From positions 5,303,501-5,367,500 of the forward strand of contig NZ_AP023360.1 of assembly GCF_018326265.1 (NCBI RefSeq): DNA of 64,000 bases. Direction: 5' to 3'. The position numbers and the translations under genes were made by a program. Shown here piece by piece: positions 1,175 through 26,678 of this stretch (positions are counted from its first letter, which is position 1; the number at the start of each line of letters is the position of its first letter). The notes under the pieces were generated by a model that was not told the origin of the DNA, did not search any database, and saw nothing but the letters and a program-made list of their open reading frames with translations. The stretch is from Catellatospora sp. IY07-71 (lineage in GTDB: Bacteria; Actinomycetota; Actinomycetes; Mycobacteriales; Micromonosporaceae).

Positions 1175-3391
<2,217 letters not shown>

Positions 3392-10369: not shown

Positions 10370-10692
10370 GCGCGGGCGACGAGCAGCGCCGCGGCGGTGC
10401 CCACGAGGGCGGCGATGGCCAGCAGGGGCAGGGCGGGTGTGGGGAGCGGCTCGTGGCGTCGCAGTGCCTTCTGCACCGCTCGCCAGCGCGGGTAGCTGAG
10501 CACGGCGACAAGTGCGCCGCAGGTGAGCAGGCCGGTGCCGAGGGCGGCTTCGACGGTTCCGGTGAGCTGCCAGAGGGCGACGCCTGCGGCCATGAGGGCG
10601 AGTGCTGATCGCAGGTACGCCAGCAGGGTGCGTTCGTTGGCGAGGCTGAAGCGGTAGTCCGGTTCCTCGCCGATGTCGTTCAGTCGGGGCAC
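10366..10692 (-). CDS. YidH-like DUF202 membrane protein (first of pair)
   Basis: 108 residues from the GTG at 10692; an in-frame ATG at 10722 would give 118. DYRFSLANERTLLAYLRSAL is the YidH/DUF202 signature, with the conserved NERTxLAY motif at the start of helix 1. Three hydrophobic helices follow. It is coupled by a 4-nt overlap to the second DUF202 gene. Divergent from the large transport operon, sharing its 150-200 bp intergenic region. Confidence 0.8.
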   Translation of the reverse strand: MPRLNDIGEEPDYRFSLANERTLLAYLRSALALMAAGVALWQLTGTVEAALGTGLLTCGALVAVLSYPRWRAVQKALRRHEPLPTPALPLLAIAALVGTAAALLVARA

Positions 10693-10752
10693 GGGGCCGA
10701 CAGTAGGGCAGTGCAGGATCACGGCCCGCAGGCGGGGGGTGAATCATTAACG

Positions 10753-10780
10753 TAAGGAACTTGTAGGAAGAAAATTAATC
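10753..10780. promoter_or_regulatory. AT-rich control region ahead of the amino-sugar operon
   Basis: A 28-bp AT-rich island in a GC-rich context, with the tandem elements TAAGGAA (10753) and TAGGAAG (10764), lies about 100 bp upstream of the ABC binding-protein gene. GGAA-type repeats are plausible half-sites for the RpiR regulator encoded in the operon. This is inference; no experimentally known site is matched exactly. Confidence 0.3.
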
Positions 10781-10872
10781 ACGGCACCCTCTAGTCAACT
10801 CGCTGATCACGCTGTTACGGTCCCTTCGCGGCACTCGCCAGGCGCCGCCCACTTGAAGGGAAACCGCCCCGT

Positions 10873-12420
10873 ATGCCTTCTTCGCCCCTCTCCGTTTCCC
10901 GCCGCACCCTGCTGGCCGGCGGTGTCTCCACCGCATTCCTGGCCCTGACCGGCTGCCGCTCGGCCGTCGACGAGCCCGCCGGCACCGCCGCCGGCGCACC
11001 GGTCCGCGGCGGCACCCTGCACCTGGCCGCCAGCGCCGACGCCCAGCCGGGCGCGGTCATGGCCAACCGCGCCGGCAACTGGATGTGGCGGCGGCTGGTG
11101 TTCGAGCCGATCGCCGAACTCGACGACCAGCGCCGCCCGCAGCCCGTGCTCGCCGAGAACTGGACCTACAACGCCGAGCGCACCCAGCTCGTCGTCGACC
11201 TGCGCGACGACGTCGTCTTCCACAGCGGCCGCCCGATGACCGCCGAGGACGTCGTCTACTCCCTGGAGCAGGTCAAGGACGCCAAGAACGCCTCCCAGCT
11301 GCGCGCCGTCGCGCTCAAGCTGACCGTGAAGGCCACCGGCGCGCACCAGGTCACCATCACCATGGACAAGCCCAGCGACAGCCTGTTCGACCTGTTCCAC
11401 CTCACCGCGATCGTCGACAGGGACAGCTTCGGCCAGATCGCCGACGGCGGCGCCGTCGTCGGCACCGGCCCGTTCGTGTGGAAGCAGTGGCGGCCCAAGG
11501 CCGGTATCAGCCTGGAGCGCAACCCGAAGTACCGCGTCGCGGACCGGCCCTACTTCGACAAGGTCGAGGTCGCCGTCATCGCCGACGCCACCGCGCTGCA
11601 GTCGGCGCTGCGCGGCGGCCGCGCCCACCTCGCCAACGGGCTCACCAGTACCGACATCGCCGCCCTCAAGGCCGACTCGGCCTACATCCTGGAGAACGCG
11701 GGCGGGGTGTTCTACCCGCTCGGCCTCAACGTCACCGCCGCGCCCTTCGACAAGAAGGAGGTCCGCCAGGCCGTCGGCTACGCCCTGGACCGCGAGCGGA
11801 TCAAGGCGCAGGTGTTCGGCGGCGACGCCACCGCCTCCGACCTGTGGTGGACCCCCACCGAGAACGGCTACCCCAAGGACCTGGCCGCCCACTACAGCCT
11901 GCAGCTGGACAAGGCCAAGGCGCTGATCGAGCAGGCCGGGGCCAAGGGCGCCAAGGTGCCGATCGCATTCGCGAACCTGCCCACCATGAAGAGCCTGTTC
12001 GAGATCGTCCGCTTCAACCTGGAGCAGATCGGCCTCGCGCCCGAGGCCGTCGCGCTGGACACCGCCGAGTTCGACGCCCGCCAGGTCGCCGGCACCCTCG
12101 GCCCGGCATTCCTGCTGCTGCACGGCATGGTCGGCTTCTCCGCCGCGACCATCGTCGACGCGATGCCGTCGCTGCGCGCCGGCAACCCGTCGAAGTACGC
12201 CGACCCGCAGTACGACACCCTCAAGGCGGGCCTGCAGCAGGCCGACGACAACGGGCGGCCGAAGGCGCTGACCGACCTGTCGACGTACCTGCTCGACAGC
12301 GCGTTCAGCCACGTCACCGCCGTCGCCCCGCAGTACCACGTACGCACCGCCAAGCTCACCGGCCTGACCACCGTGCCGCTGGGCTGCGTCGTGGCCACGG
12401 ACGCGTACCTGGCGGCCTGA
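10873..12420 (+). CDS. ABC transporter family 5 substrate-binding lipoprotein
   Basis: 515 residues. SRRTLLAGGVSTAFLALTGC combines a Tat motif with a lipobox (TGC), so it is a Tat-exported lipoprotein on the outer face of the membrane. The body is a peptide/nickel-type (SBP_bac_5) protein, with LVVDLRDDVVFHSGRPMTAEDV as the family signature. It opens a run of co-directional genes with MurQ and an amino-sugar kinase downstream. The ligand is therefore more likely a peptide-linked amino sugar (muropeptide) or oligosaccharide than a simple dipeptide. That ligand is inferred. Confidence 0.85.
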   Translation: MPSSPLSVSRRTLLAGGVSTAFLALTGCRSAVDEPAGTAAGAPVRGGTLHLAASADAQPGAVMANRAGNWMWRRLVFEPIAELDDQRRPQPVLAENWTYNAERTQLVVDLRDDVVFHSGRPMTAEDVVYSLEQVKDAKNASQLRAVALKLTVKATGAHQVTITMDKPSDSLFDLFHLTAIVDRDSFGQIADGGAVVGTGPFVWKQWRPKAGISLERNPKYRVADRPYFDKVEVAVIADATALQSALRGGRAHLANGLTSTDIAALKADSAYILENAGGVFYPLGLNVTAAPFDKKEVRQAVGYALDRERIKAQVFGGDATASDLWWTPTENGYPKDLAAHYSLQLDKAKALIEQAGAKGAKVPIAFANLPTMKSLFEIVRFNLEQIGLAPEAVALDTAEFDARQVAGTLGPAFLLLHGMVGFSAATIVDAMPSLRAGNPSKYADPQYDTLKAGLQQADDNGRPKALTDLSTYLLDSAFSHVTAVAPQYHVRTAKLTGLTTVPLGCVVATDAYLAA

Positions 12421-12421
12421 C

Positions 12422-13372
12422 ATGCTGACGTTCCTGCTGCGGCGGCTGCCGTCGCTGGCCGGGGTGCTGCTGGCCAGCTCCGTGATCGCGTTCGCGCTGC
12501 CGCGGCTTGCGCCCGGCGACCCGGCCGTCACCATCGCCGGCCCGGACGCCGCCCCGGAGGCGGTCGCCGCGGTACGGGACGCCCTCGGCCTCGACCGGTC
12601 CCTGCCCAGCCAGTACCTGCACTGGCTGGGCGGGGTCCTGTCCGGCGACCTCGGCACCTCGTTCACCACCGGCCGGCCCGTCGCCGAACTGCTCGCCGAC
12701 CGCGCCGCCAGCACCGTCGAACTGGCCGTCGTCGCCGCGCTGCTGATGAGCCTGCTCGGCATCGGCCTGGGCGTGCTCGGCGGCAACCGGCGCAGCCCCG
12801 CCGTGCGCGCCGCCGTCGACGGTGTGAGCAGCGCCCTGCTGGCCGCCCCGCCGTTCCTCACCGGACTGCTGCTGGTGCTCGCGCTGGGCATCGCCTACCC
12901 GGTGCTGCCCGCAGGCGGCGAGGTGTCGCTGCTCGACGACCCCGTCATCGGCATCCAGTACCTGATCATGCCCGCGGTCGCGCTGGCGCTGCCGCAGGCC
13001 GCCGCGATCGGCCGCCTCGTGCAGACCGAGATGCGCCGCAACCGCGGCGAGGAGTTCGTCGACCTCGCCACGGCCAAGGGGCTGAGCCCCGGCCAGGTCA
13101 CCCGCAGGCACGTGCTGCGCACCAGCCTCGGCACCGGCGCCGTCGCGATCGGGCTGCGCCTGGGCGAACTGCTGGCTGGCGCGATCGTCGTGGAGGCCGT
13201 GTTCGCCCGCAACGGTCTGGGCACCCTCGCCGTGGCCAGCATGGCCGGCCGCGACTACCTCGTCGTGCAGGTCCTGGTGCTGCTCGCCGTGGCGGTCGCC
13301 GCCGTCATCCAGATCCTCACCGAGCTGGTCCTGGCCTGGCTCGACCCCCGCGTCCGGCTCGGAGCCTCATGA
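12422..13372 (+). CDS. ABC permease, DppB/OppB type
   Basis: 316 residues, starting 1 nt after the previous stop. Six transmembrane helices with the DppB-like extracytoplasmic loop after helix 1 (LAPGDPAV...LGLDRSLPSQY). The coupling-helix EAA region is EFVDLATAKGLSPGQVTRRHVLR. It pairs with the DppC-type permease, which it overlaps by 4 nt. Confidence 0.88.
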   Translation: MLTFLLRRLPSLAGVLLASSVIAFALPRLAPGDPAVTIAGPDAAPEAVAAVRDALGLDRSLPSQYLHWLGGVLSGDLGTSFTTGRPVAELLADRAASTVELAVVAALLMSLLGIGLGVLGGNRRSPAVRAAVDGVSSALLAAPPFLTGLLLVLALGIAYPVLPAGGEVSLLDDPVIGIQYLIMPAVALALPQAAAIGRLVQTEMRRNRGEEFVDLATAKGLSPGQVTRRHVLRTSLGTGAVAIGLRLGELLAGAIVVEAVFARNGLGTLAVASMAGRDYLVVQVLVLLAVAVAAVIQILTELVLAWLDPRVRLGAS

Positions 13373-14205
13373 CCACCCTCACCGCCACCCGCCCGCGCAG
13401 CCGCTACCTGTCGGCGCTGCGCACCCCCCGCGGCCTGACCGGCACAGCGCTGGTCACGATCCTGTGCCTGGCCGCGCTGCTCGCCCCGGTGCTGGCCCCG
13501 CAGGGCTACGACGCCCAGGGCAGCGGCTCGCTGCAGCCCGGCACCTGGCCCGCCCTGTTCGGCACCGACGAACTCGGCCGCGACATCCTCGCCCGTGCCC
13601 TGTACGGCCTGCGCACCGACCTGGCCCTGGTCGGCCTCGCGGTGCCGGTCAGCGCCGTCGTCGGCACCCTGCTCGGCCTGGCCGGGTTCCTGCACCGCGG
13701 CCTGGGCACGCTCCTGCAGCGCTGCCTCGACGTGGTGCTCGGCTTCCCCAGCCTCATCCTCGGCATCAGCATCGCGCTCGTGCTCGGCGCGGGCTGGTGG
13801 GCGCTGTTCGTCGCGATCGTCGTCTACGGCCTGCCCGCCTTCGGCCGCCTGGCCCGCGCCGGGCTGCTCACCCAGGCCCAGCGCGAGTACGTACACGCCG
13901 CGCAGGTCATGGGCGTGCCCCGCACCACGATCATGATGCGGCACATCCTGCCGCACGCCCTGGACCCCGTCATCGTGCAGATCGCCGTCGGCATGGTCGG
14001 CGGCATCTTCCTCGAATCGTCGCTGAGCATCGTCGGCCTCGGCATCCAGCCGCCCGAGCCGTCGCTGGGCGCGCTGCTCAACACCGGCATGCGGTACATG
14101 ACCGCCCAGCACCTGTACGTCCTCGGGCCGGCGCTGCTCCTGCTGCTGCTGGCCTGGGGCCTGACCCTCATCTCCGACGCGCTCAACGAGGCGGTACACC
14201 GGTGA
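13369..14205 (+). CDS. ABC permease, DppC/OppC type
   Basis: 278 residues. FGTDELGRDILARALYG is the DppC-family signature, and the EAA loop reads EYVHAAQVMGVPRTTIMMRHILPH. Start overlaps the upstream permease stop (ATGA) and its stop overlaps the GTG of the ATPase gene, showing tight translational coupling in the importer operon. Confidence 0.88.
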   Translation: MTTLTATRPRSRYLSALRTPRGLTGTALVTILCLAALLAPVLAPQGYDAQGSGSLQPGTWPALFGTDELGRDILARALYGLRTDLALVGLAVPVSAVVGTLLGLAGFLHRGLGTLLQRCLDVVLGFPSLILGISIALVLGAGWWALFVAIVVYGLPAFGRLARAGLLTQAQREYVHAAQVMGVPRTTIMMRHILPHALDPVIVQIAVGMVGGIFLESSLSIVGLGIQPPEPSLGALLNTGMRYMTAQHLYVLGPALLLLLLAWGLTLISDALNEAVHR

Positions 14206-16169
14206 CCACCCCACTGCTACAGGTCCAGGGCCTGCGTACCAGGTTCGGCGACACCACCGCCGTCGACGGCGTCGACCTGACCGTCCACCGCGGCACCATC
14301 CTCGGCGTCGTCGGCGAGTCGGGCTCCGGCAAGTCCGTCACCGCCCGCTCGGTCATGCGGCTGCTGCGCAGCCCCGGCCGGGTCGCCGAAGGCACCGTCG
14401 CGTTCGACGGCGAGGACCTGTTGGCCCTGCCCGACCGGCGCATGCGGCGGCTGCGCGGCGGCCGGATCGCGATGGTGTTCCAGGACCCGCAGTCCGCGCT
14501 CAACCCGGTGCGCACCGTCGGCGACCAGATCGCCGAGGCGCTGACCGCCCACGGGGCCACCCGCACCGCCGCCCGCGCCCGCGCCGCCCACCTGCTCGGC
14601 CTGGTCGGCATCCCCGACGGCCCGAACCGGCTCGACGACTACCCCCATCAGTTCTCCGGCGGTATGCGCCAGCGCGTCGTCATCGCCATCGCCCTGGCCA
14701 ACGAGCCCGACCTCCTCATCGCCGACGAACCCACCACCGCCCTGGACGTCACCATCCGGGCGCAGATCCTGGCGCTGCTGGCCCGGCTGCGCGACGAGCT
14801 GGGCGTCGCGATCGTCGTCATCACCCACGACATGGGCGTGGTCGCCGAGCTGTGCGACGAGGTCGTCGTCATGTACGCCGGACGCGTCGCCGAACACGGG
14901 ACCGTCGAGCAGGTGCTGTCCGCGCCCCGGCACCCGTACACCGCGAATCTGCTGCGGGCCATGCCCCGCCTGGACGCCGTCCCGGCCGCGCGGCTGACCG
15001 CGATCCCCGGCACGCCCCCGGACCCGGCCGACCTGCCCGCCGGATGCGCGTTCGCGCCACGTTGCGCGCAGTCCACCGACGTCTGCGCCCAGCAACGCCC
15101 GGCGCTGCGCGCCGTGGACGGCCGCGAGGTCGCCTGCTGGCACGCCGCCGACAGCGCCGTCGTCGCCGCCCCGGTCCCGGCCGCGCCCCGCCCACCGGTC
15201 GGCGCGACCGTGCTCGCCGTCGAGGACCTGCGCGTCGACCTCGCCGGGCGCAGCCGCCTGTGGCGTCCCGCGACGCCGGTGTACGCCGTCGACGGCGTGT
15301 CCCTGCACGTCGCCGCAGGCGAGACGCTGGGCCTGGTGGGGGAGTCCGGCTGCGGGAAATCCTCCCTGGCCAAGGCCATCGTCGGCCTCAACCCGATCAC
15401 GTCCGGAACCGTCCGCGTCGACGGCACGCCCGCCGACCCGGCCCGCGGCGGTGTGCGCGGCGCGGTGCAGTACGTGTTCCAGGACCCCTACGCCTCGCTC
15501 AACCCTCGCCGCACCGTCGGGCAGTCCATGGCCGAGGCCCTACGCGCCGGCGGCACGCCCGCCGACCAGACCCGCGAACGGGCGGCGCAGCTGCTGGCCA
15601 CCGTCGGTCTGACCGCCGCGCACCTGGACCGCTACCCGCACGCGTTCTCCGGCGGCCAGCGCCAGCGCATCGGCATCGCCCGTGCGCTGGCCACCAACCC
15701 GCGCGTGCTGCTGTGCGACGAACCCGTGTCGGCACTCGACGTGTCGGTGCAGGCCCAGGTGATCAACCTGCTTGCCGACCTGCGTGACGAGCTCGGCCTG
15801 GGCTACCTGTTCATCGCCCACGACCTGGCCGTCGTGCGGCACCTGGCCGACCGGGTCGCGGTCATGTACCTCGGCCGCATCGTCGAGACCGGACCGGCCG
15901 AGCAGGTGTACGCCGAACCGCAGCACCCCTACACCGCCGCGCTGCTGTCGTCGTCGCCCGAACCCACCCCCGGCCTGCGCCGCGAACGCATCGTGCTGAC
16001 CGGCGACCTGCCCAGCCCGAAGAACCCGCCGACCGGCTGCCGCTTCCGCACCCGCTGCCCGGCCGGGCCGCTGCACCGCCCCGACCGGCAGATCTGCGTC
16101 GACGTCGACCCGCGGCTGAGCACCGACGCGCACACGGCCGCCTGCCACTTCCCCGGGCAGCTGCGGTGA
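14202..16169 (+). CDS. Fused double ATPase of the peptide-type ABC importer (DppD-DppF)
   Basis: 655 residues from the GTG at 14202, which overlaps the DppC stop; a much longer upstream frame is antiparallel noise. Half one has Walker A GESGSGKS, signature FSGGMRQR and Walker [13 protein letters not shown]. Half two has [16 protein letters not shown] and [12 protein letters not shown]. Each half ends with the oligopeptide-transporter tail ([10 protein letters not shown]...[23 protein letters not shown]...GCRFRTRC). The two subunits that are separate in Opp/Dpp systems are one polypeptide here, as in GsiA-type importers. Confidence 0.9.
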
Positions 16170-17173
16170 GCGCCCTGGCCCGGATGCGGGCGATGTACGC
16201 CTTCGACCGGTCACTGACCGACCCCGACGCCACGGACCGGCTGCTCGACCGGGCCGCCGCAGCCGGGATCACCATCCTGATCACCAAAGCCGCCGCGGTC
16301 ACACCCGCCCTCGCCGACGCCTGCCACCGCGCCGGGCTGAGCGTGTACGGCAGCATCGCCTGCTTCAGCGACCACGCCGACCCGCGACCCCGCGAGGACC
16401 TGCGCCCCGTCGACGAGCACGGCGGCTGGACGGCCATGGAGTGGTACACCGGGCTCATCCCCACCGACCCCGACCACGTGCAGGCACTGGTCCGCCGGTG
16501 CGCCGACCTGGCCACCGGACCGGCCGACGGGCTGGTGCTGGACTTCCTGCGCTGGCCGCTGCACTGGGAGCTGGAACTGCGGCCGGGGGCCACCCCTCGC
16601 AGCGCGTCGTTCGACCCGGTCACCCTCACCTCATTCACCCGCGCCACCGGCCACCCGGTGCCCGCCGACCCGCGCGAGGCCGCGCGGCTGCTGCTCGGCC
16701 CGCTGTACGAGCCGTGGCACACCTGGCGCGAGCAGGTCATCACCGACGTGACCGCCGGTATCGCCGCCGCGGTCCGGGCCGCCCGGCCCGGCCTGCCGCT
16801 CGGCATGTTCCTGGTGCCCGGCGACGCGTGGCAGCGCCGCCTGGTCGGCCAGGACATCGCCGCCCTCGGGCAGCACGTCGACGGGTTCCTCGCCATGACC
16901 TACCACGCGATCCTGCACCAACCCCCGTCGTGGGTGGCCCGAACCGTCGCCGACCTCGCCGCCCGCACCACCCGGCCGGTCGTGACCATGGTGCAGACCA
17001 CCACCGACCCGGCCCTGGCCCGCGGCGCCGACTGGGGCGACCGCCTGGACGCCGACGCGTTCGCGCAGACACTGGCCGAGGTGGACGGTCCACTCTGCCT
17101 GTTCCCCGCCGAGGGGATGGATGATCCACGGTGGCGTGCGCTCGCCGCCACCGACCGAAGGAGCCTGTCATGA
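16166..17173 (+). CDS. TIM-barrel-like protein, putative cytoplasmic glycosidase
   Basis: 335 residues, GTG overlapping the ATPase stop. No signal peptide. Alternating strand/helix segments with acidic residues at strand ends (DGLVLDFLRWP, SIACFSDHADP, PLGMFLVPGD, GFLAMTYHAI) look like a GH-type (beta/alpha)8 barrel. I cannot place it in a numbered family. The DFLRWP aspartate and the C-terminal LFPAEGMDD acidic residues are candidate catalytic groups. Its position between the importer and MurQ suggests it trims the imported compound. Function is inferred from context. Confidence 0.6.
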   Translation: MSALARMRAMYAFDRSLTDPDATDRLLDRAAAAGITILITKAAAVTPALADACHRAGLSVYGSIACFSDHADPRPREDLRPVDEHGGWTAMEWYTGLIPTDPDHVQALVRRCADLATGPADGLVLDFLRWPLHWELELRPGATPRSASFDPVTLTSFTRATGHPVPADPREAARLLLGPLYEPWHTWREQVITDVTAGIAAAVRAARPGLPLGMFLVPGDAWQRRLVGQDIAALGQHVDGFLAMTYHAILHQPPSWVARTVADLAARTTRPVVTMVQTTTDPALARGADWGDRLDADAFAQTLAEVDGPLCLFPAEGMDDPRWRALAATDRRSLS

Positions 17174-18054
17174 CCGTCGACGTCCTGGTCCGCCTGCGCG
17201 GGATGATGTCCGGCCTGCCCCGCGCCGAGCAGGCCATCGCCCGCGTCGTGCTCGACGACCCCGGCACCGCCGCCGAGCTGACCATCTCCGAGCTGGCCCA
17301 GGCCGCCGGGACGTCGGAGACGACGGTCACCCGGTTCTGCCGCAACATCGGCCTGCGCGGATACGCCCAGCTGCGGCTGCACCTGGCCGCCGAGGCCGAG
17401 CGGCAGCGCGCCGACGCCCGTCCCGGCGTCGACCTCGCCGGGGACATCACCCCCGCCGACAGCACCGCCGCCATCATCGCCAAGGTCGGCTTTGCCGACG
17501 CCCGCGCCGTCGAGGACACCGTCGCCCGCCTGGACATCGCCGCCCTGGACCGGCTGGTCGCGGCCATCGACGCGGCCGGGCGCACCGACGTCTACGGGGT
17601 CGGCTCCAGCGCGACCGTCGCCGCCGACGCGGCGCAGAAGCTGCTGCGTATCGGCCACTACGCCGCCGCCTGGTCCGACCCGCACGCCGCGCTGATGAGC
17701 GCGTCGAGCCTGCGGCCCGGCGACGTCGCGGTCGCGCTGACCCACTCCGGGCGCACCCGCGACATCCTCGACGTGCTCGCCGAGGCCAAGCGGCGCGGCG
17801 CGACCGTCGCCGTGATCACCAGCAACCCCGAGTCCCCGGCCGCTGTCCTGGCCGACGTCGTGCTGGTCACCGCGGCCAGGGAGACCACCTTCCGCAGCGG
17901 CGGCACCGTGTCGCGCACCGCGCAGCTGACCGTCGTCGACTGCCTGTTCGTCCTGCTGGCCAAGCAGCGCTACGAGGAATCACTGGAGGCCATGGAGCGC
18001 GCGCACGACGCGGTGCGCGGCCGCGCCCTGCCCAAGGAGAGGGACCCAAGATGA
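17170..18054 (+). CDS. RpiR/MurR-family transcriptional regulator
   Basis: 294 residues. ATG at 17170 with AAGGAG (17158-17163). Residues 1-77 are the HTH_6 domain (ISELAQAAGTSETTVTRFCR). Residues about 115-260 are a SIS sugar-phosphate-binding domain (DVYGVGSSATVAAD, LTHSGRTRDI). RpiR regulators sense phosphosugars; beside MurQ the effector is probably MurNAc-6-phosphate or GlcNAc-6-phosphate. It ends in an ATGA overlap with murQ. Likely local repressor of this operon. Confidence 0.88.
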   Translation: MTVDVLVRLRGMMSGLPRAEQAIARVVLDDPGTAAELTISELAQAAGTSETTVTRFCRNIGLRGYAQLRLHLAAEAERQRADARPGVDLAGDITPADSTAAIIAKVGFADARAVEDTVARLDIAALDRLVAAIDAAGRTDVYGVGSSATVAADAAQKLLRIGHYAAAWSDPHAALMSASSLRPGDVAVALTHSGRTRDILDVLAEAKRRGATVAVITSNPESPAAVLADVVLVTAARETTFRSGGTVSRTAQLTVVDCLFVLLAKQRYEESLEAMERAHDAVRGRALPKERDPR

Positions 18055-18962
18055 GCACCACCGCCGGCGCCGTACGCGTCGCGTCGCCCACCGAAGGCCG
18101 TAACCCCCGCACCACCGACCTGGACCGGCTCGGCACCCTCGACCTGGTCCGAGCCCTGCACGCCGAGGACGCCCAGGTGCCCGCCGCCGTGGCCGCCGCG
18201 CTGCCGCAGCTGGCCGAAGCAGTCGACCTCGTCGTCGCGGCCCTGCGCCGCGGCGGCCGGATCCACTACTTCGGCGCCGGATCCTCCGGCCGGTTCGGGG
18301 TCCTCGACGCCGCCGAGGTCCCCCCGACCTACGGCCTGCCCGCCGACCGGTTCGTCGCCCACCTCGCCGGCGGCGAACAGGCGATGACCGCCGCCGTGGA
18401 GAGCGTCGAAGACCACGCCGACGCCGGTCACGCCGCCGCCGCACAGGTGGGCATCGCCGACGTGGCAGTCGGGCTCACCGCCAGCGGCCGCACCCCGTAC
18501 GTCGCCGGGGCGCTGACCGCCGCCCGCGCCGCCGGGGCCCGCACCGTCCTGATCAGCGGCAATCCGCACGCGCCGCTGGCCGCGCTCGCCGACGTGCACA
18601 TCGCCGCCGACACCGGACCCGAAGCCGTCATGGGCTCGACCCGGATGAAGGCCGGCACCGCCCAGAAGCTGGTGCTGCACACCCTGTCCACCGCCGCCAT
18701 GGTCAGGCTCGGACGCACCTACTCCAACCTGATGGTCGACGTCGTGGCCACCAACGCCAAGCTGCGCGGCCGCGTGCTGGCCATCCTCGTCGCCGCGACC
18801 GGCGTCGACGAGCAGACCGGCCGCCGGGTCCTGGCCGACTCCGGGGGCGACCTGAAGACCGCGATCGTCGCCGTGCTCAGCGACCTGGACCCGGTCACCG
18901 CGCGCATCCGGCTCGACGAGGCCGGCGGCCACGTCCGCCAGGCCATCGCCGCCCGGCCGTGA
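18051..18962 (+). CDS. murQ: N-acetylmuramic acid 6-phosphate etherase
   Basis: 303 residues, the normal MurQ length. It cleaves the D-lactyl ether of MurNAc-6-P to give GlcNAc-6-P and lactate. SPTEGRNPRTTDLD near the N-terminus, YFGAGSSGRFGVLDAAE and MGSTRMKAGTAQK are the family signatures, on a SIS fold. The catalytic Glu lies in the DAAEVPPTYG stretch. Overlaps both neighbours by 4 nt. Its presence ties the whole operon to peptidoglycan-sugar catabolism. Confidence 0.93.
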   Translation: MSTTAGAVRVASPTEGRNPRTTDLDRLGTLDLVRALHAEDAQVPAAVAAALPQLAEAVDLVVAALRRGGRIHYFGAGSSGRFGVLDAAEVPPTYGLPADRFVAHLAGGEQAMTAAVESVEDHADAGHAAAAQVGIADVAVGLTASGRTPYVAGALTAARAAGARTVLISGNPHAPLAALADVHIAADTGPEAVMGSTRMKAGTAQKLVLHTLSTAAMVRLGRTYSNLMVDVVATNAKLRGRVLAILVAATGVDEQTGRRVLADSGGDLKTAIVAVLSDLDPVTARIRLDEAGGHVRQAIAARP

Positions 18963-19948
18963 CCGGCTACGTCCTCGGCTTCGACATCGGCGGCACGGGG
19001 GTGCGCGGCGCGCTGGCCCGCATCACCGCCCGCGGAGCCGAACACCTCACCACCCGCACCGACCCCACCCCGATCCGGATGGGACCCGACGGCGTCGACC
19101 CGGCCGAAGTCGGCCGCGCCGTCACCGCCGTCACCGCCGCGCTCCTGCCGTCCGGACACACCCCCGCGGCGCTGGTGCTCGGCTGCACCGGCGCGGCACT
19201 GCTCGGCAGCGGGCTGCGCAGACAGCTGGCAGCCGCCGTCACCGCCGACGGCCCTCGCCCGGCGCCGGTCCTGCTCTGCTCCGACGTGCTCACCTCGCAC
19301 ATCGGAGCGCTCGGCTCCGGCGGGGGAGCGGTAGTGGCCGCCGGGACCGGCGCCATCGCGCTGGGCAGCGACGGCCGCGGCGCCTGGCGGCGCGCGGACG
19401 GCTGGGGCACCCTGCTCGGCGACAGCGGCGGCGGCGCCTGGGTCGGCCGGACCGGCATCGACGCCGCGCTGCGCGCCGAAGACGGCCGCCCCGGCGGATC
19501 GCCCGCGCTGCTACGGGCGCTGGTCGCCCGCTACGGCAGCCCCGCCGACCTCGTCCACGCCGTCACCAGCCGCGCCGACCGCGGCGCGGTGCTGGCCGCG
19601 TTCGCCCCCGACGTCGCCGCCGCGGCGGCCGACGACCCGGTCGCATACCGCATCCTGCGCACCGCCGGACGGCACCTGGCCGACACCCTGCTCGCCGCGT
19701 TGCCCCCAGGCGCACCACCGCGCGCCGCGGCCGTCGGCAACCTGCTGCACGCCGGACCGCCGCTGACCACAGCCCTCGCCGACCGGCTGACCGCCCGAGC
19801 CCCCGACCTGCGCCTGCTCACCCCGGCAGGCACCTCTTTGGACGGCGCGATCACCCTCGCCGCCGCCGCCGTGCACCAGGCGCTGCCCCCCGGCGCCGAC
19901 CTCGAACGGCTCACCCCCGCCGGTCACCCCACCACCCAGGCGGCCTGA
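18959..19948 (+). CDS. BadF/BadG-type amino-sugar kinase (GlcNAc/MurNAc kinase)
   Basis: 329 residues, GTG start overlapping murQ. The ASKHA phosphate-1 motif is GFDIGGTGVRGAL; the second phosphate site is VVAAGTGAIALG and the Gly-rich DSGGGAWVG follows. This is the GlcNAc-kinase/MurK subfamily. It would supply MurNAc-6-P to MurQ and/or GlcNAc-6-P to central metabolism. No PTS gene is present, which fits import by the ABC system followed by cytoplasmic phosphorylation. Confidence 0.85.
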   Translation: MTGYVLGFDIGGTGVRGALARITARGAEHLTTRTDPTPIRMGPDGVDPAEVGRAVTAVTAALLPSGHTPAALVLGCTGAALLGSGLRRQLAAAVTADGPRPAPVLLCSDVLTSHIGALGSGGGAVVAAGTGAIALGSDGRGAWRRADGWGTLLGDSGGGAWVGRTGIDAALRAEDGRPGGSPALLRALVARYGSPADLVHAVTSRADRGAVLAAFAPDVAAAAADDPVAYRILRTAGRHLADTLLAALPPGAPPRAAAVGNLLHAGPPLTTALADRLTARAPDLRLLTPAGTSLDGAITLAAAAVHQALPPGADLERLTPAGHPTTQAA

Positions 19949-19984
19949 GCGCCGCCCACCCCCCGAAGGGAGTGATCCTCCGAC

Positions 19985-22558
19985 ATGGCCGTCGACAGGA
20001 TCCGCATCACCCGGCACGCGACGCGCGTAGCCGCGACCAGCGCACTCGCCCTCACCGCCACCCTGCTCACCGCGCTGCCCGCCCACGCCGCCAATCCCGA
20101 ACCGGCGCTGGTCCCCAGCCTGCGCCAATGGACCGGCGGCACCGGTACCCTCGCCCTCACCGCCGCCACCCGCATCATCGTCGACCCCGCCGACGCGAGC
20201 GCCGCCACCTCCGGCGTCACCGGACCGCTGCTGTCCACCCGGACCCTGTCTCAGGTCGCCGTGGAGCTGCGCGACGACATCACCGCCGTCAGCGGCCTCA
20301 CCCCGACGGTCGTCACCTCGGCCACCGCCAACCCCGGCGACATCGTCCTGCGCCTGGACGCCGACGCCGGTCTGGGCACCGAGGGCTACCAGCTCACCGT
20401 CGGGGCCACCGCCACCCTGACCGCCCCGACCTCGACCGGCGTCTACTACGGCGGACGCACCCTGGCCCAGCTGCTGCGCCTGGACACCGCCCACACCGGC
20501 CTGCCCGCCGGCACCGCCCGCGACTGGCCCGCGCTGGCCTACCGCGCCGAGCACTTCGACGTCAGCCGCCGCTTCATGACCGTCGCCGAGATCACCGACG
20601 AGATCCGGCGCATGTCGTGGAACAAGCTCAACGTCCTGCAGCTGATGTTCAACCAGGCCAACGCGTTCCGGCTCTACCACCCGTCGTACGCCGCAGCAGC
20701 GCCCACCGACCCGGCCCAGCGCTACAGCCAGGCCGACGTCAACACGATCCTGCAGGTCGCCGCCGAGCACCACGTCACCGTCGTACCCGAGATCCAGAAC
20801 CCGACCAAGATGGCCCCCGTCGCGGGCCTCGGCGGCGTCGACCGCTCCCTGAACACGCAGTGCGGCGACCCGCAGACCCTCGACTTCACCGACCCGGCCG
20901 TCGTGACGTGGATGCAGCAGATCGTCACCACCTTCGCCGTCTGGTTCCCCGCCACCTACGTCCACCTCGGCAACGACGAGGTCCCGGCGGCCCTGGCGAG
21001 CTGCCCCTATCTGCAGGCCAAGATGACCGGCGGCCTCACCACGCTGGCCGACCTGCAGGAGGTGTACATCGAGCAGTTGCGCCAGACCGTCGTCGGCCTG
21101 GGCGAGAAGGCCATGATCTGGGTCAACAACACCGACATCCAGCCCGCCACCGACGTGCTCATCATGAACTTCGGCCCCACGTCGGTGTCGACGACGATGC
21201 GCTCGCTGGGCTACGACGTCGTGGACTCCTCGTACAAGACGGGGCCGTACGACCGGTTCTACATCTCACCGGCCGATTACGAGTCCAAGGTCGTCGCCCG
21301 CGGCGAGATGTACGCCTGGACCCCGGTCGCCCACGCCCGCAACGCCGGGCAGGTCCTGGCCGCCTGGGGTGACGACCTGTTCTTCAGCGAGACCGGCTAC
21401 TACCTCGACATGTTCGACGGCCGCCGCTCCGAACTGGCCGAACGCACCTGGAACACCGACCCGGTGTCGCTGACGTTCGCGCAGTTCACTGCCGCGGTCG
21501 CGGCACTGGGCGACGCCCCCGGGGCGACCGCCCGCACCCACCCGCCAGCGACCACGAACGCCCAGCCCATCCACCGCTACACCTACGACGCCGCGTACAC
21601 GCCCACCGCCGCCACGCACTACCCCGGCTACTGGCAGCTCAGCATCGCCGACACCGTCGGCACGCTGCACGGCAACGGCTGGCTCTACCGCCCCACCTAT
21701 CCGGCGACCGGGCGCAGCGGCAGCGGCCTGCAGTTCACCGCGGGCACCTCGCAGACCCTCAGCCTGGGCGGCCGCGCGATCCCGGGCGAGTGGACGTTCA
21801 GCACCTGGATCAAACGCACTGCCGACGGCACCAACACCGTCCTGGTCCGCGACATGGAGCAGGCCATCAAGGTCGAGGAGTACGGCACCAGCCACCAGGT
21901 CGGCATCACCCGCTACGGCGTGGGCAACTACCCGTTCGCCTACGTCCTGCCGCTGGGCCAGTGGGTGCACCTGACCCTCGTCGGCACCGCGACCGGCACG
22001 AGCCTGTACGCCAACGGGGCATTCCAGCAGAGCATCCCGCAGACCATCGCGCTGCCGCTGGGTGGGCTGGGCGGCAAGCGGCCGTTCTCCGGGGTGCTCG
22101 ACGACACCGCCGTCTACCGTCAGGCGCTCACCGCCGCCCAGGTGTCCGACGCGTACGCCGCCGCAGTGGGCGACGACCTCGCCCTCGGCCGGCCGGTCGT
22201 GGTGTCCAGCACTTACCGCGTCGGTGTGGAGGCGGTCAACGCCGTCGACGGTGATGCGACCACCCGCTGGTCCAGCGACCGCAGCGACCCGCAGTGGATC
22301 TACGTCGACCTCGGCTCGACCCGCACGATCGACCGGGTGCGCGTCAACTGGGAGGCCGCCTACGGCAAGTCGTACCAGATCCAGGTGTCAGGCGACGCCG
22401 TCAACTGGACGACGGTCTACTCGACCACCACCGGCGACGGGGGAGTCGACGACCTGACCGGCCTGTCCGGCACCGGCCGCTACGTGCGCCTGTACGGCAC
22501 CCAGCGCGGCACCGTCTACGGCTACTCCATCTGGGACTTCAACGTCTACGGAGCCTGA
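19985..22558 (+). CDS. Secreted GH20 beta-N-acetylhexosaminidase with LamG-like and CBM32 domains
   Basis: 857 residues, ATG at 19985 with AAGGGAG upstream. Signal peptide ends PAHAAN. A GH20b-like N-domain precedes the catalytic barrel (about 180-500), where HFDVSRRFM and HLGNDEVP mark the family. The catalytic Asp-Glu pair is in GNDE, instead of the usual GGDE. Residues about 540-710 are a concanavalin-like LamG fold and about 715-857 an F5/8 type C (CBM32) domain. It removes terminal GlcNAc or GalNAc outside the cell, feeding the importer. Last gene of the operon, followed by a terminator. Confidence 0.9.
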   Translation: MAVDRIRITRHATRVAATSALALTATLLTALPAHAANPEPALVPSLRQWTGGTGTLALTAATRIIVDPADASAATSGVTGPLLSTRTLSQVAVELRDDITAVSGLTPTVVTSATANPGDIVLRLDADAGLGTEGYQLTVGATATLTAPTSTGVYYGGRTLAQLLRLDTAHTGLPAGTARDWPALAYRAEHFDVSRRFMTVAEITDEIRRMSWNKLNVLQLMFNQANAFRLYHPSYAAAAPTDPAQRYSQADVNTILQVAAEHHVTVVPEIQNPTKMAPVAGLGGVDRSLNTQCGDPQTLDFTDPAVVTWMQQIVTTFAVWFPATYVHLGNDEVPAALASCPYLQAKMTGGLTTLADLQEVYIEQLRQTVVGLGEKAMIWVNNTDIQPATDVLIMNFGPTSVSTTMRSLGYDVVDSSYKTGPYDRFYISPADYESKVVARGEMYAWTPVAHARNAGQVLAAWGDDLFFSETGYYLDMFDGRRSELAERTWNTDPVSLTFAQFTAAVAALGDAPGATARTHPPATTNAQPIHRYTYDAAYTPTAATHYPGYWQLSIADTVGTLHGNGWLYRPTYPATGRSGSGLQFTAGTSQTLSLGGRAIPGEWTFSTWIKRTADGTNTVLVRDMEQAIKVEEYGTSHQVGITRYGVGNYPFAYVLPLGQWVHLTLVGTATGTSLYANGAFQQSIPQTIALPLGGLGGKRPFSGVLDDTAVYRQALTAAQVSDAYAAAVGDDLALGRPVVVSSTYRVGVEAVNAVDGDATTRWSSDRSDPQWIYVDLGSTRTIDRVRVNWEAAYGKSYQIQVSGDAVNWTTVYSTTTGDGGVDDLTGLSGTGRYVRLYGTQRGTVYGYSIWDFNVYGA

Positions 22559-22568
22559 CATGGGGCCG

Positions 22569-22602
22569 CCCCCGCCCGGTTCACCGCGGAACCGGGCGGG
22601 GG
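22569..22602 (+). terminator. Terminator of the amino-sugar operon
   Basis: A perfect 14-bp stem (22569-22582 with 22589-22602) and 6-nt loop lie 10 nt after the GH20 stop codon. The 240 bp that follow hold no gene and probably the promoter of the regulator at 22843. Confidence 0.8.
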
Positions 22603-22842
22603 GCCAGCGCCGGTGGCCCGAGCGCCGCCAGGCCGGCCTCCGGGCATCACGGGACGGCGGTGACCTCGCACGACAAGGTTGCGGGTGAAGAATAGTTGCG
22701 AACGCGTCTGGTCTGCGGGGTAAGGGTGTTGCTACGGTCTTTCAGCGGTGCGCCTGTCGGCGAGCCGGGCCGTGCCGTCCGGTGGAACCCGTGTCGACGT
22801 CGGCCGCCGGTGGGCGCCGCGGGACTTTTCTGAGGGGCCGCG

Positions 22843-23823
22843 ATGCTGGATGTGCTGGGCCTCGAACCGTTCGAGGAAGGCGTCTACCGCCGGCTCGTCC
22901 GGCGGACCTCCGACACCGCCGACGGGCTGGCCGCGGGGATGCAGGCCGACCCGTCACGCATTCACGACGTGCTGCGGTCGCTGCAGGACAAAGGCCTGGT
23001 GGCCCCCTCGGCGACGGCTGCCGGACACTTCACGGCCTCACCGCCGGAGCTGGCGCTCGGCTCGCTGCTCGTACAGCGCCAGGACGCCATCCGTAAGGCG
23101 CAGCTGGAGGTCAGCAGGCTCACCGAGCAGTACCGCAGCGCCACCCCGGAACGCGCCGAAACCGACGTCGTCGACGTCGTACGCGGCGGGCAGGCCGTCG
23201 CCCAGCGCTTCGCCCAGCTGCAACGCGGTGCCACCAGCGAGGTGCTGGCCCTGGTGAAGGCGGACGTGGCGATGGTGGCCGTGGAGGACAACATCGACGA
23301 GGAGGCCGCCGTGCACCGCGGCGTCACCTACCGCGTCGTGCTGGAACGGGCGGCGTTCGAACGGCCCGGCTTCGTGGACCGGGTCGTCGAATCCGTCAAC
23401 GCGGGCGAACACGCCCGGGTAGTCGCGCAGGTGCCGCTGCGCCTGGTGATCGCCGACCGGGCACTGGCACTGGTGCCGCTGGCCCCGCGCGACTCGAACG
23501 CCCCCGCGGCCCTGCTGGTGCATCCCAGCGGGCTGCTCGACGCGCTGACAACCCTGTTCGAGCTGGTGTGGGCGCAGGCCAACGAGATCGTCCCGACCGC
23601 GCAGGGGATCAGCGAGCTGGCCGCGCACCGGATCGACGAGATCGACGCGCGCATCCTCACCCTGCTGCTGGCGGGCCTCACCGACCAGGCCATCGGCAGC
23701 CAGCTCGGCCTGTCGCTGCGGACCGTGCAGCGCCGCGTCAGCAACCTGATGGAGCAGGCCGGGGTCGTCACCCGCTTCCAGCTCGGCCACGTGGCCGGTC
23801 GCCGCGGCTGGGTCGGCGCCTGA
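22843..23823 (+). CDS. TrmB/LuxR-like helix-turn-helix regulator
   Basis: 326 residues, ATG at 22843 after GAGGGG. The N-terminus (EEGVYRRLVRRTSDTADGLA) resembles a TrmB-type winged helix that decides between promoter states. The middle is an uncharacterised ligand domain, and the last 65 residues are a LuxR-like HTH (ILTLLLAGLTDQAIGSQLGL then SLRTVQRRV). This two-HTH architecture is common in actinomycete orphan regulators. Upstream of two secreted proteases, which it may control. Confidence 0.8.
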   Translation: MLDVLGLEPFEEGVYRRLVRRTSDTADGLAAGMQADPSRIHDVLRSLQDKGLVAPSATAAGHFTASPPELALGSLLVQRQDAIRKAQLEVSRLTEQYRSATPERAETDVVDVVRGGQAVAQRFAQLQRGATSEVLALVKADVAMVAVEDNIDEEAAVHRGVTYRVVLERAAFERPGFVDRVVESVNAGEHARVVAQVPLRLVIADRALALVPLAPRDSNAPAALLVHPSGLLDALTTLFELVWAQANEIVPTAQGISELAAHRIDEIDARILTLLLAGLTDQAIGSQLGLSLRTVQRRVSNLMEQAGVVTRFQLGHVAGRRGWVGA

Positions 23824-23943
23824 GCCGCATCGCGGCATCGCATTTACGCCATGGCACCTTTCCGCCAGGGCGAACGGGTTCACCGGCCCAGCACACGGCT
23901 GCAAGATCTTCTCCAGTCAACCACCCCTGGAGAAGGAGCGCCC

Positions 23944-26601
23944 GTGCCCCGCTTACCCGCCGGCCGGAAATCCGTCGCCGTGTCCATCGCGCTGATCGGC
24001 GCAGTCGCCGCGGGCACCGCCGGTGTCTTCGCCGTCCCACCCGCCGCGGCCGAGATCAACCCGACCACCGACAAACTCGGTGACCACGACCGAACCCTCA
24101 TCGCGCAGTACGCCCGCCAGCGCGCGACGCGTGCCCTGCCTGACGGCGCCACCCAGCCGATGCCCGAGTTCGTCACGCTGCTGCTGGCCGTCCGCGATGG
24201 ACAGACCGAGCAGGTCACGGCCGAGCTGACCGAGCTCGGCGCGACCGTGACCGGGACGACCCCCGAGATCGGCTACGTCAAGGTGAACGTGCCGTTCGCC
24301 GACATCGACCGCGCCGTCGCCATCGACGAGGTCGTCGCCGCGGACGTCGACGAGCTGCTGCGGCTGGAGCCGGTCGGCGAGCACCGCACGGCACCCGCAG
24401 GCGGCAAGCCCGGCAGCAGCCTGCCCACGGCGCCGTCGGCGGCCACGCCCGACGACAACCCGTACCTGCCGACGGGCGAGACGGGCTCGGTCACGTTCAA
24501 GGTCCAGCACCCGACCTATGACGGCCGTGGCGTGACCATCGGCATCATGGACAGCGGCGTCGACCCCACCCATCCGGCGCTGGCCACCACCACGACCGGT
24601 GAACTGAAGCTCGTCGACTCCGTCGTCGGCAGCAGCCCGGCGAACCTCATCGACACCCTGTTCGACGACACCTGGCGTTACCTCTCGCCGAGCAGCCGGG
24701 TGACCGGGCCGACGTTCACCGACCCCCTCCTGCGCCGCACCTGGACCGGCCCGGCCGAAAGCGGCCTGCGGGTCAGCGCCAAGAAGGTCTCGGTGTCGAG
24801 CATCAGCGGCAGCTACCTCGGCGTGCTGTACCGCGAGTCCGACGACGCCGTCTGGGTGGACACCGACCAGGACTTCGACTTCACCGACGAGGAGCTGATG
24901 CGGCCGTTCGCGGTGGCCCGCCAGCTCGGCCACCTCGGCGTCGACGACCCCGCCACGCCGGTCAACGAACGGGTCCCGTTCACGATCGACCTGGAGAAGA
25001 ACCTCTTCGCCAACACGTCGAGCTGCCGCGACGCCGGCTGCCACGGCGTGAACATCAACTGGATCGCCGAGGGGCACGGCACCCACGTGGCGGGCATCGC
25101 CGCCGGGCACGGCCTGTTCGGCGGGGCCATGAATGGCCAGGCGCCCGGCGCGAAGCTGGTCTCGATGCGCGCCTGCCACGCCTCCGGCTGCTCCACCGCG
25201 GCGCTGACCGACGGCATGGTCGAGCTCGCCACCGTGCACGGCGTCGACGTCATCAACATGTCGATCGGCTCGTCGCCGACGTTCAACGACGGTCACAGCG
25301 CCCGCGAGCTGCTGTACAACCGGCTCATCGACGAGACCGGCGTGCAGATCTTCATCTCCGCGGGCAACTCCGGCGCGGGCACCAACACCGTCGGGGAGCC
25401 CACCGGCGCCGACCGGGTGGTCAGCGTGGGCGCGTCGGTGTCGAAGGAGACCTGGTGGGCCAACTACGGCTCGCAGGTCAAGACCCCTAAGGGCATCTTC
25501 CCGTTCTCCTCGCGCGGCCCGCGCGAGGACGGCGGGTTCAAACCCGACATCACCGCCCCCGGCTCGGCCGTCTCCACCACTCCCGACTGGACGGCCAGCA
25601 GCGGCCCGGCCGAGACCGGATACGCGCTGCCGCCGGGCTACTCGATGCTCAACGGCACGTCGATGGCCGCCCCGCAGGCGACCGGTGCCGCGGCGCTGCT
25701 GCTGTCGGCGGCCAAGCAGCACGGCCTGGCCGTCACCCCGGCCGACCTGCGCAACGCCATCTACGCCACGGCAGACTTCACCGAAGGCGTGGAGGCGATC
25801 GCCCAGGGCCGGGGCCAGCTCGACGTCCGCCAGTCATGGACGCACCTGACCAACGGCGTGGCCGCCGACACCGTGACCGTCGACGCGCCGGTCTGCACCA
25901 TCCTGTCGCACCAGCTGACCACGCCGCACCGCGGCAGCGGCCTGTACAACGGCTGCGCACCGAGCGCGGGGGGCCAGGTCGTGGGCGCGGCACGCACGTA
26001 CGACCTCACCCTGACCCGCACGGGTGGCGCCGACACGGCGGTCACCTACGCGCTGTCGCTCCAGGGCGACGACGGCACGTTCACCGTGCCAGCGCAGGTG
26101 CTGCTGGACAAGAACGTCCCGACCACCGTCCAGGTCACCGCCACCCCCGCCACGCAGGGCATGCACAGCGCGGTGCTCGTCCTCGACGACCCGGCCACCC
26201 GGGCCGTCGAGCAGCACACGATGCTCGCCGTTCGGGCCGCCGCGCCCCTGGCCGCCGGCGCCACCTGGTCGGTGCAGGGCACCGTCAAGCGCAACGGCAC
26301 CATCGTGTACGCGGTCGCCGTCCCCGCCGGGACGAAGTCGCTGACGGTGAACCTGTCCGGCCTGGCCGGCGGCAGCCAGACCCGCTGGTGGGCGTTCAAC
26401 CCCAACGGCGTCAGCGGCGAGAGGTCCGTCGCGGGCACCGGCTACTGCTACGCCGGCTACCTCGACGGCAACGGCTGCGACCCGGCCGCCCGCACCTACA
26501 CCAACCCGCTGGCGGGCGTGTGGGAGTTCGTCGTCGAGTCGCGGCGCACCAGCCCGCTGCTGGACAACCCGTTCCAGCTCCAGGCGTCGATCACCCAGTG
26601 A
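23944..26601 (+). CDS. Secreted subtilisin-family (S8) serine protease
   Basis: 885 residues from the GTG at 23944, placed 6 nt after GGAGAAGGAG; this start leads straight into a signal peptide (KSVAVSIALIG...PPAAAE). An I9-like propeptide follows (residues about 55-140). The catalytic triad is Asp203 (GIMDSGVD), His378 (EGHGTHVAG) and Ser573 (NGTSMAAP), with the oxyanion Asn in ISAGNSGAG. About 120 residues are inserted between Asp and His. The C-terminal 250 residues form beta-sandwich repeats ending in a pre-peptidase-like domain (GTVKRNGTIVYAVAV). Extracellular protein degradation. Confidence 0.9.
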   Translation: MPRLPAGRKSVAVSIALIGAVAAGTAGVFAVPPAAAEINPTTDKLGDHDRTLIAQYARQRATRALPDGATQPMPEFVTLLLAVRDGQTEQVTAELTELGATVTGTTPEIGYVKVNVPFADIDRAVAIDEVVAADVDELLRLEPVGEHRTAPAGGKPGSSLPTAPSAATPDDNPYLPTGETGSVTFKVQHPTYDGRGVTIGIMDSGVDPTHPALATTTTGELKLVDSVVGSSPANLIDTLFDDTWRYLSPSSRVTGPTFTDPLLRRTWTGPAESGLRVSAKKVSVSSISGSYLGVLYRESDDAVWVDTDQDFDFTDEELMRPFAVARQLGHLGVDDPATPVNERVPFTIDLEKNLFANTSSCRDAGCHGVNINWIAEGHGTHVAGIAAGHGLFGGAMNGQAPGAKLVSMRACHASGCSTAALTDGMVELATVHGVDVINMSIGSSPTFNDGHSARELLYNRLIDETGVQIFISAGNSGAGTNTVGEPTGADRVVSVGASVSKETWWANYGSQVKTPKGIFPFSSRGPREDGGFKPDITAPGSAVSTTPDWTASSGPAETGYALPPGYSMLNGTSMAAPQATGAAALLLSAAKQHGLAVTPADLRNAIYATADFTEGVEAIAQGRGQLDVRQSWTHLTNGVAADTVTVDAPVCTILSHQLTTPHRGSGLYNGCAPSAGGQVVGAARTYDLTLTRTGGADTAVTYALSLQGDDGTFTVPAQVLLDKNVPTTVQVTATPATQGMHSAVLVLDDPATRAVEQHTMLAVRAAAPLAAGATWSVQGTVKRNGTIVYAVAVPAGTKSLTVNLSGLAGGSQTRWWAFNPNGVSGERSVAGTGYCYAGYLDGNGCDPAARTYTNPLAGVWEFVVESRRTSPLLDNPFQLQASITQ

Positions 26602-26605
26602 ACAC

Positions 26606-26648
26606 CGACCGGTGTGGCGGGCCGTCCTGCCGCCCGCCACACCGGTCG
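26606..26648 (+). terminator. 17-bp terminator between the two proteases
   Basis: CGACCGGTGTGGCGGGC (26606-26622) pairs exactly with 26632-26648 around a 9-nt loop. It separates the two protease transcripts although only 77 bp lie between the genes. Confidence 0.8.
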
Positions 26649-26678
26649 CTGCCGTCGATCGGAAGGAAACACCGGCAC

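Follow-up and report, generated by a model that had tools for sequence, protein, structure and literature searches.

In Escherichia coli and Bacillus subtilis, N-acetylmuramic acid (MurNAc) is catabolized by murQRP systems, and the B. subtilis cluster also includes NagZ, AmiE and NamZ. How peptidoglycan sugars return into actinomycete cells is poorly known; for mycobacteria, a 2026 preprint on MurQ-dependent MurNAc recycling in Mycobacterium smegmatis calls the mechanisms largely unclear (PMC13041923). A different route is reported for Agrobacterium, where YejBEF-YepA, a peptide-class ATP-binding cassette (ABC) importer, takes up muropeptides (PMC9790009). The present analysis concerns a nine-gene operon at positions 10873-22558 of a 64,000-nucleotide stretch of Catellatospora sp. 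IY07-71 DNA (the window; contig NZ_AP023360.1, positions 5,303,501 to 5,367,500). In the interpretation that we favor, with about even confidence, the operon imports a saccharide that contains MurNAc and turns it into N-acetylglucosamine-6-phosphate (GlcNAc-6-phosphate) without a phosphotransferase system (PTS), an unclassified barrel protein cleaving the saccharide inside the cell. The locus resembles the murQRP systems in having an RpiR/MurR-type regulator and MurQ, and the genome also carries a NagZ-NamZ pair; however, an ABC importer and a separate kinase replace the PTS, NagZ and NamZ lie at another locus, and the barrel protein and a family 20 glycoside hydrolase (GH20) are additional. 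With the M. smegmatis pathway it shares an actinobacterial MurQ route to GlcNAc-6-phosphate, and the accessible text of the preprint makes no mention of an importer-barrel operon (PMC13041923). Nor was this layout described in any title or abstract opening returned by literature searches on the theme, which covered mostly papers outside subscription. The core of the pathway is known, and the layout is unusual and conserved, with one protein that has no family. The operon names a specific importer, enzyme and regulator, each of which can be tested.

The nine genes run in a single direction on the + strand. The first four would encode the importer: a substrate-binding lipoprotein (10873-12420; Pfam SBP_bac_5, 219.9 bits) in which a twin-arginine-like leader and an LTGC lipobox are visible by eye, a DppB-type permease (12422-13372; BPD_transp_1 and BPD_transp_1_N), a DppC-type permease (13369-14205; BPD_transp_1) and a fused DppD-DppF ATPase (14202-16169; two ABC_tran and two oligo_HPY domains). 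Then come the barrel protein (16166-17173; 335 amino acids), a probable cytosolic glycosidase to judge from its remote relatives, the RpiR/MurR-type regulator (17170-18054; HTH_6 and SIS), MurQ, the MurNAc-6-phosphate etherase (18051-18962; TIGR00274), a BadF/NagK-type amino-sugar kinase (18959-19948; BcrAD_BadFG) and a GH20 enzyme (19985-22558; Glyco_hydro_20, Glyco_hydro_20b, Laminin_G_3 and F5_F8_type_C) whose Sec-type leader, recognized by eye, marks it as secreted. Six of the eight junctions are 4-nucleotide overlaps; the others are a 1-nucleotide gap and, before the GH20 gene, a 36-nucleotide gap. Third-codon-position GC content lies between 0.92 and 0.97 in all nine genes, as compared with 0.75 in a 694-codon reading frame antisense to the binding-protein gene. 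A first-pass annotation, made from the letters of the window, had named these genes and proposed an operon of one direction with mostly 4-nucleotide overlaps; the coordinates, the Pfam matches and the junctions bear it out.

The same annotation had deduced from the presence of MurQ that the substrate must contain MurNAc, and had considered the route to be independent of a PTS. Both the PTS independence and a MurNAc-6-phosphate chemistry are supported. MurQ scores 322.7 bits against TIGR00274, above the curated cut-off of 302, and the PTS_EIIC domain (PF02378), which is found in seven of 14 control genomes, has no match in this genome; on these two grounds the predicted PTS-independent catabolism of MurNAc is well supported. 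In an alignment of nine MurQ sequences, E89 and E120, placed by eye and which we take to be the catalytic glutamates, do not vary. The kinase exceeds the BcrAD_BadFG cut-off (44.6 versus 31.5 bits) and falls far below that of the GlcNAc-kinase equivalog NF046058 (NagK_SO3507; 54.8 of 370 bits); in phmmer comparisons it matches a GlcNAc kinase (1zc6, 7.2e-15) and a MurNAc/GlcNAc kinase (8zo3, 2.1e-9). The GH20 catalytic domain scores 109.9 bits against a cut-off of 22.3.

One could envision the following sequence of events. Outside the cell, the secreted GH20 enzyme, together with NagZ and NamZ encoded elsewhere, would trim peptidoglycan fragments. The lipoprotein and the DppBC-DF importer would carry in the product, most likely a disaccharide that is peptide-free or peptide-poor, and the barrel protein would cleave its glycosidic bond in the cytosol. 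Judging from its family and from the requirements of MurQ, the BadF kinase would phosphorylate the freed MurNAc, and perhaps GlcNAc too; MurQ, as a member of its family, would strip lactate from the resulting MurNAc-6-phosphate, and NagA, encoded elsewhere, would continue the route. The RpiR protein would sense a sugar phosphate and act upstream of the first gene.

The nature of the imported ligand deserves scrutiny, as the first-pass annotation had read the peptide-type importer as a sign that whole muropeptides enter the cell and are trimmed inside. The Agrobacterium precedent lends this idea some appeal, and so does the naming of the binding protein's solved relatives: among the best 60 of 93, many are named peptide binders, others are named for opines, nickel or heme, several have an unnamed ligand, and no oligosaccharide binder is named. 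For the nearest of them, 5u4o, no ligand is named, and sequence comparison does not place the ligand of the binding protein. In the same vein, the fused ATPase scores 593.1 bits with the OppF model for murein tripeptides and oligopeptides, above the cut-off of 540, but this result does not discriminate, because two ATPase domains are summed and the models for nickel (NikD, NikE) and for staphylopine (CntD, CntF) are passed likewise. The term peptide-class, as applied to the importer, should be taken as a family call only. SBP_bac_5 proteins presumably belong to cluster C of the binding proteins. Subcluster IV of that cluster is oligosaccharide-binding according to a published report (PMC10667598), so that a peptide ligand does not follow from the class of the importer. 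The likeness to YejBEF-YepA consists in an Opp/Dpp-class ABC importer being proposed for a peptidoglycan product; in contrast to that system, the window importer, with its predicted ligand, is part of a catabolic MurQ operon, and it stays below the cut-offs of the YejB (67.8 of 445 bits), microcin C permease (80 of 439) and YejF (498.7 of 834) models. Pfam identifies no amidase, peptidase or LD-carboxypeptidase among the nine genes, which makes a peptide-free or peptide-poor saccharide the more economical guess for the ligand. The nearest genes with the look of peptidases, by eye, encode secreted subtilisin-like proteins from position 23851 on. Import of intact muropeptides followed by internal trimming thus appears unlikely, and the claim made for it is not supported.

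The barrel protein is the least familiar component of the operon, and the central step of the interpretation that we favor depends on it. It has no Pfam or NCBIfam match at an E value of 0.001. Its best approach to a known family is GHL10, at E 0.036 and 13.6 bits, below the gathering cut-off of 27.9; DUF4015 is not listed for it. When the E value was allowed to rise to 10, 18 of 23 aligned barrel sequences matched DUF4015, a putative glycosidase domain, eight matched GHL6 and five GHL10. In single scans, four of ten relatives exceed the DUF4015 gathering score of 27 bits, and since all four are from Chloroflexota, the link from the barrel protein to the glycosidase barrels runs through intermediate sequences. 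A barrel profile compared with the sequences of the PDB finds the uncharacterised protein 4s1a at E 1.9e-8, PgaB at 0.0039 and 0.024, an exosialidase at 0.048 and GH18 proteins at 0.082 and 0.22. Kinship with the GHL10/DUF4015/GH153 barrels is remote, being clearest for 4s1a, weak for PgaB and at noise level for Cwp19.

Seven residues (D126, E135, D150, D239, Y246, H247 and Q277) are unvarying in the 23 sequences. D126, the candidate for the Asp expected after strand 4 of a TIM-barrel fold, lines up with the Asp in the FDYIRFP motif of 4s1a, and what the protein has in common with the barrels named above is an Asp conserved within a motif of the LDxxRxP kind. In two reports, Asp196 of Cwp19, equated with Asp466 of E. 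coli PgaB, and D474 of Bordetella PgaB are proposed as key or catalytic residues (PMC5765458, PMC5933820). These residues would correspond to D126. DigH is a further GHL10 member. Cwp19, which carries a GHL10 domain, is reported to be a lytic transglycosylase (PMC6016235), and DigH degrades peptide-free glycans (PMC12288456); both act on peptidoglycan glycans, and PgaB acts on deacetylated poly-GlcNAc (PMC6016235, PMC5765458, PMC5933820, PMC12288456). Cwp19, by the same accounts, is located at the surface and PgaB in the periplasm, whereas in the window barrel the Asp is followed by an HWE motif, and the protein belongs to a sugar-import operon and shows no leader by eye. As no leader is visible and several relatives begin at the same MRA/MRS motif, the barrel is probably cytosolic; it is best read as a glycosidase that works in the cytosol on the saccharide brought in by the importer. 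A family that was devoid of annotation gains in this way a first functional hypothesis.

The distribution of the barrel is uneven. It is present in three of the 150 genomes of the family (own genome included), representing three of 44 genera, and is absent from all ten other genomes listed as belonging to the same genus; the TIGR00274 cut-off is exceeded in 82 of the 150. Thus MurQ is common in the family and the barrel is rare. In the two other genera (genomes G081 and G139), the genes for the binding protein, DppB, DppC, DppDF, barrel, RpiR, MurQ and kinase occur in identical order, with 44-77% protein identity, and the preservation of these first eight genes indicates that the arrangement is more than chance. 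Downstream of the kinase, the GH20 gene is found in G081. Its place in G139 is taken by a relative of MPAB/Lcp-type oxygenases, not a peptidase, a further point against the import of intact muropeptides. This rare but intact presence suggests a functional unit that is transferred or often lost. Wider searches gave four of 394 genomes in the class (own included, one marginal; a 70-residue match in G490 has an E value of 9.7e-4) and, with the barrel profile, four of 396 in the phylum (own included; the others are G616, G773 and G795). Of 56 candidate stretches that came out of a scan of named genomes, 21 proved to be barrel relatives, seven from Actinomycetota and 14 from Chloroflexota.

Ten distinct actinobacterial loci could be compared (the window, L013, L017 and L020 to L026, L025 being the same place as G331). 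At related loci the genes were called with a simple script that makes some errors, as in L020, where it returned the antisense frame over MurQ; the counts are based on tblastn and Pfam. Neighbors may be missed in L026, which stops soon after the barrel, and in L021, which stops just short of it. An RpiR gene lies directly 3' of the barrel in five of the ten loci (a fragment in L021), a BadF kinase is nearby in four, and GH20 in four (cut by the contig end in L026). ABC importers of three classes occur within a few kb in seven loci: Dpp-type in three, a divergent NMT1-type in two and SBP_bac_1-type in two, the assignment in L026 resting on similarity to L024 only. The Kitasatospora locus (L023) groups barrel, RpiR, MurQ and BadF kinase beside a different, divergent importer; between its RpiR and MurQ genes lies a 408-residue protein (L023:11879-13105) with a leader by eye, an F5/8 type C domain and an N-terminal part without a family. 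Near one Microbacterium barrel there is a 313-residue protein (L024:5583-6524) with no Pfam match. In Chloroflexota, the barrel gene directly follows a DppD-DppF pair at ten of 14 loci. These loci form one syntenic group, and the nine of the ten that were placed in the tree fall in one clade, so this pairing counts as approximately one event. One relative, whose frame appears to be split in two pieces (L039:9935-10935), was excluded from the alignments because the frame looks broken.

Neighborhoods of this kind might fit a broader function, namely a general scavenging of amino-sugar glycans, such as chitobiose or sulfated glucosamine glycans, with MurQ as one branch. At the two Microbacterium loci the barrel adjoins GH20 and a sugar-type ABC importer in the absence of MurQ, one of them also having a ROK kinase; these two loci, like that of Kitasatospora, count equally toward the interpretation that we favor. 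Furthermore, sulfatases with an N-sulphoglucosamine sulphohydrolase C-terminal domain (SGSH_C) lie close upstream of barrel relatives in Ruania, with one gene between (L022:6456-8033), and in an Anaerolineae record, where the two are adjacent (L033:1484-2917). Yet 4-nucleotide overlaps link RpiR, MurQ and kinase in this operon, and the three genes are kept in all three Micromonosporaceae copies, and we regard general scavenging as very improbable for the window operon. The informative neighbors of the barrel indicate a role in the handling of amino sugars more generally, not of MurNAc only. The idea that the barrel is strictly linked to MurNAc was rejected, since MurQ adjoins it at only four of the ten actinobacterial loci. 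It is tempting to speculate, if only tentatively and as a possibility somewhat short of an even chance, that the barrel is the founding member of a new family of glycoside hydrolases, which would be mainly cytosolic, occur in Actinomycetota and Chloroflexota and cleave amino-sugar disaccharides after their import. In this branch it would serve as the dedicated step freeing MurNAc inside the cell after ABC import, in a salvage layout free of both PTS and AmpG.

The first-pass annotation had also described the operon as apparently complete. The core is present, but the word complete is too strong, as shown by a survey of the remaining genome. The one NagA match above the cut-off lies away from the operon, there is no genomic match to NagB of the TIGR00502 type or to AnmK, and a second MurQ-like gene exists. 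A protein with two SIS domains (C1:2286454-2287209) might be a NagB-II candidate. The second MurQ-like gene, at 290.8 bits below the TIGR00274 cut-off, is paired with an RpiR gene (C1:186797-188654; L071:8798-10655, - strand), and no other homologues of the operon occur in the surrounding 19.9 kb; L081 has a similar pair, also next to a sigma-factor-like gene (by eye). Altogether, 12 MurQ contexts were searched with the window genes, and reading frames were listed for L071, L072, L074, L081 and L082. L082 contains a MurQ (64.5% identity) and a BadF kinase (51%) close to the window copies (L082:8598-10670), and 19 kb of sequence there gave no match to the barrel or the importer. An RpiR-MurQ pair also occurs in two genomes of the same genus, where a more distant Dpp-type importer lies next to it on the other strand (L072:3023-10892 and L075:8680-16678).

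Approximately 1.2 Mb from the operon, a secreted-looking NagZ-type family 3 glycoside hydrolase (GH3) is encoded next to NamZ (C1:6479264-6482359; L093:16265-19360, - strand). By eye, the former has a Sec-like and the latter a Tat-like leader, the TAT model scoring under its cut-off for NamZ. This pair speaks against trimming inside the cell. It could also mean that the substrate taken up is free MurNAc, which NagZ, NamZ and GH20 would release outside the cell, and that the barrel acts on some other bond or ligand. However, the conserved barrel would then be left without a role, and in the 34 kb around the pair only weak ATPase matches to the operon, and no close homologue of its importer, are found. 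Uptake of free MurNAc is accordingly improbable in our opinion.

Other data weigh against the interpretation that we favor, in which a MurNAc-containing saccharide is imported and cleaved by the barrel in the cytosol. The genome has 13 GH3 matches, and the NagZ motif is present at four of eight loci inspected; two of these NagZ-motif proteins have no obvious leader by eye, so a cytosolic NagZ may exist already. The view of the barrel as the missing NagZ is weakened by these same two proteins. The syntenic MurQ copies of the two other genera score 301.1 and 295.6 bits, below 302, and G139 has no GH20 gene downstream. As to the barrel itself, none of five actinobacterial members passes the DUF4015 cut-off in single scans, the members from MurQ operons in L012 and L023 have no family match even at an E value of 1, and Cwp19 is found in the PDB search at E 0.082, no better than a ribosomal protein (0.088). 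MurQ is near the barrel in only four of the ten actinobacterial loci, and homology searches identify no RpiR, MurQ, kinase or GH20 at three of them (L017, L022 and L025).

A possible site of regulation lies upstream of the first gene, where the AT-rich block AAGAAAATNNNNCACG (10768..10783, + strand) is a candidate for a promoter or for the target of a regulator. Two 8-mers recur upstream of all three syntenic operons, one inside AAGAAAATNNNNCACG and the other corresponding to the likely ribosome-binding stretch. The AAGAAAATNNNNCACG pattern was built from these three regions and is present in them by construction; in the 8.6 Mb genome its single exact match is at window positions 10768-10783. 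With one mismatch allowed there are three sites, compared with two for a reversed control, and hence no further site is indicated. A longer composed pattern of the upstream region has no match in the window, and a scan of 10500-24000 for consensus promoters and terminators returned none of either, the consensus not being informative for an actinomycete.

Beyond the operon, window positions 22843-30446 encode a TrmB-type regulator with a LuxR-like C-terminal helix-turn-helix, followed by two long proteins that by eye are secreted and subtilisin-like. On the other side, at 2030-3391, lies a gene for a protein with ricin-type beta-trefoil lectin repeats.

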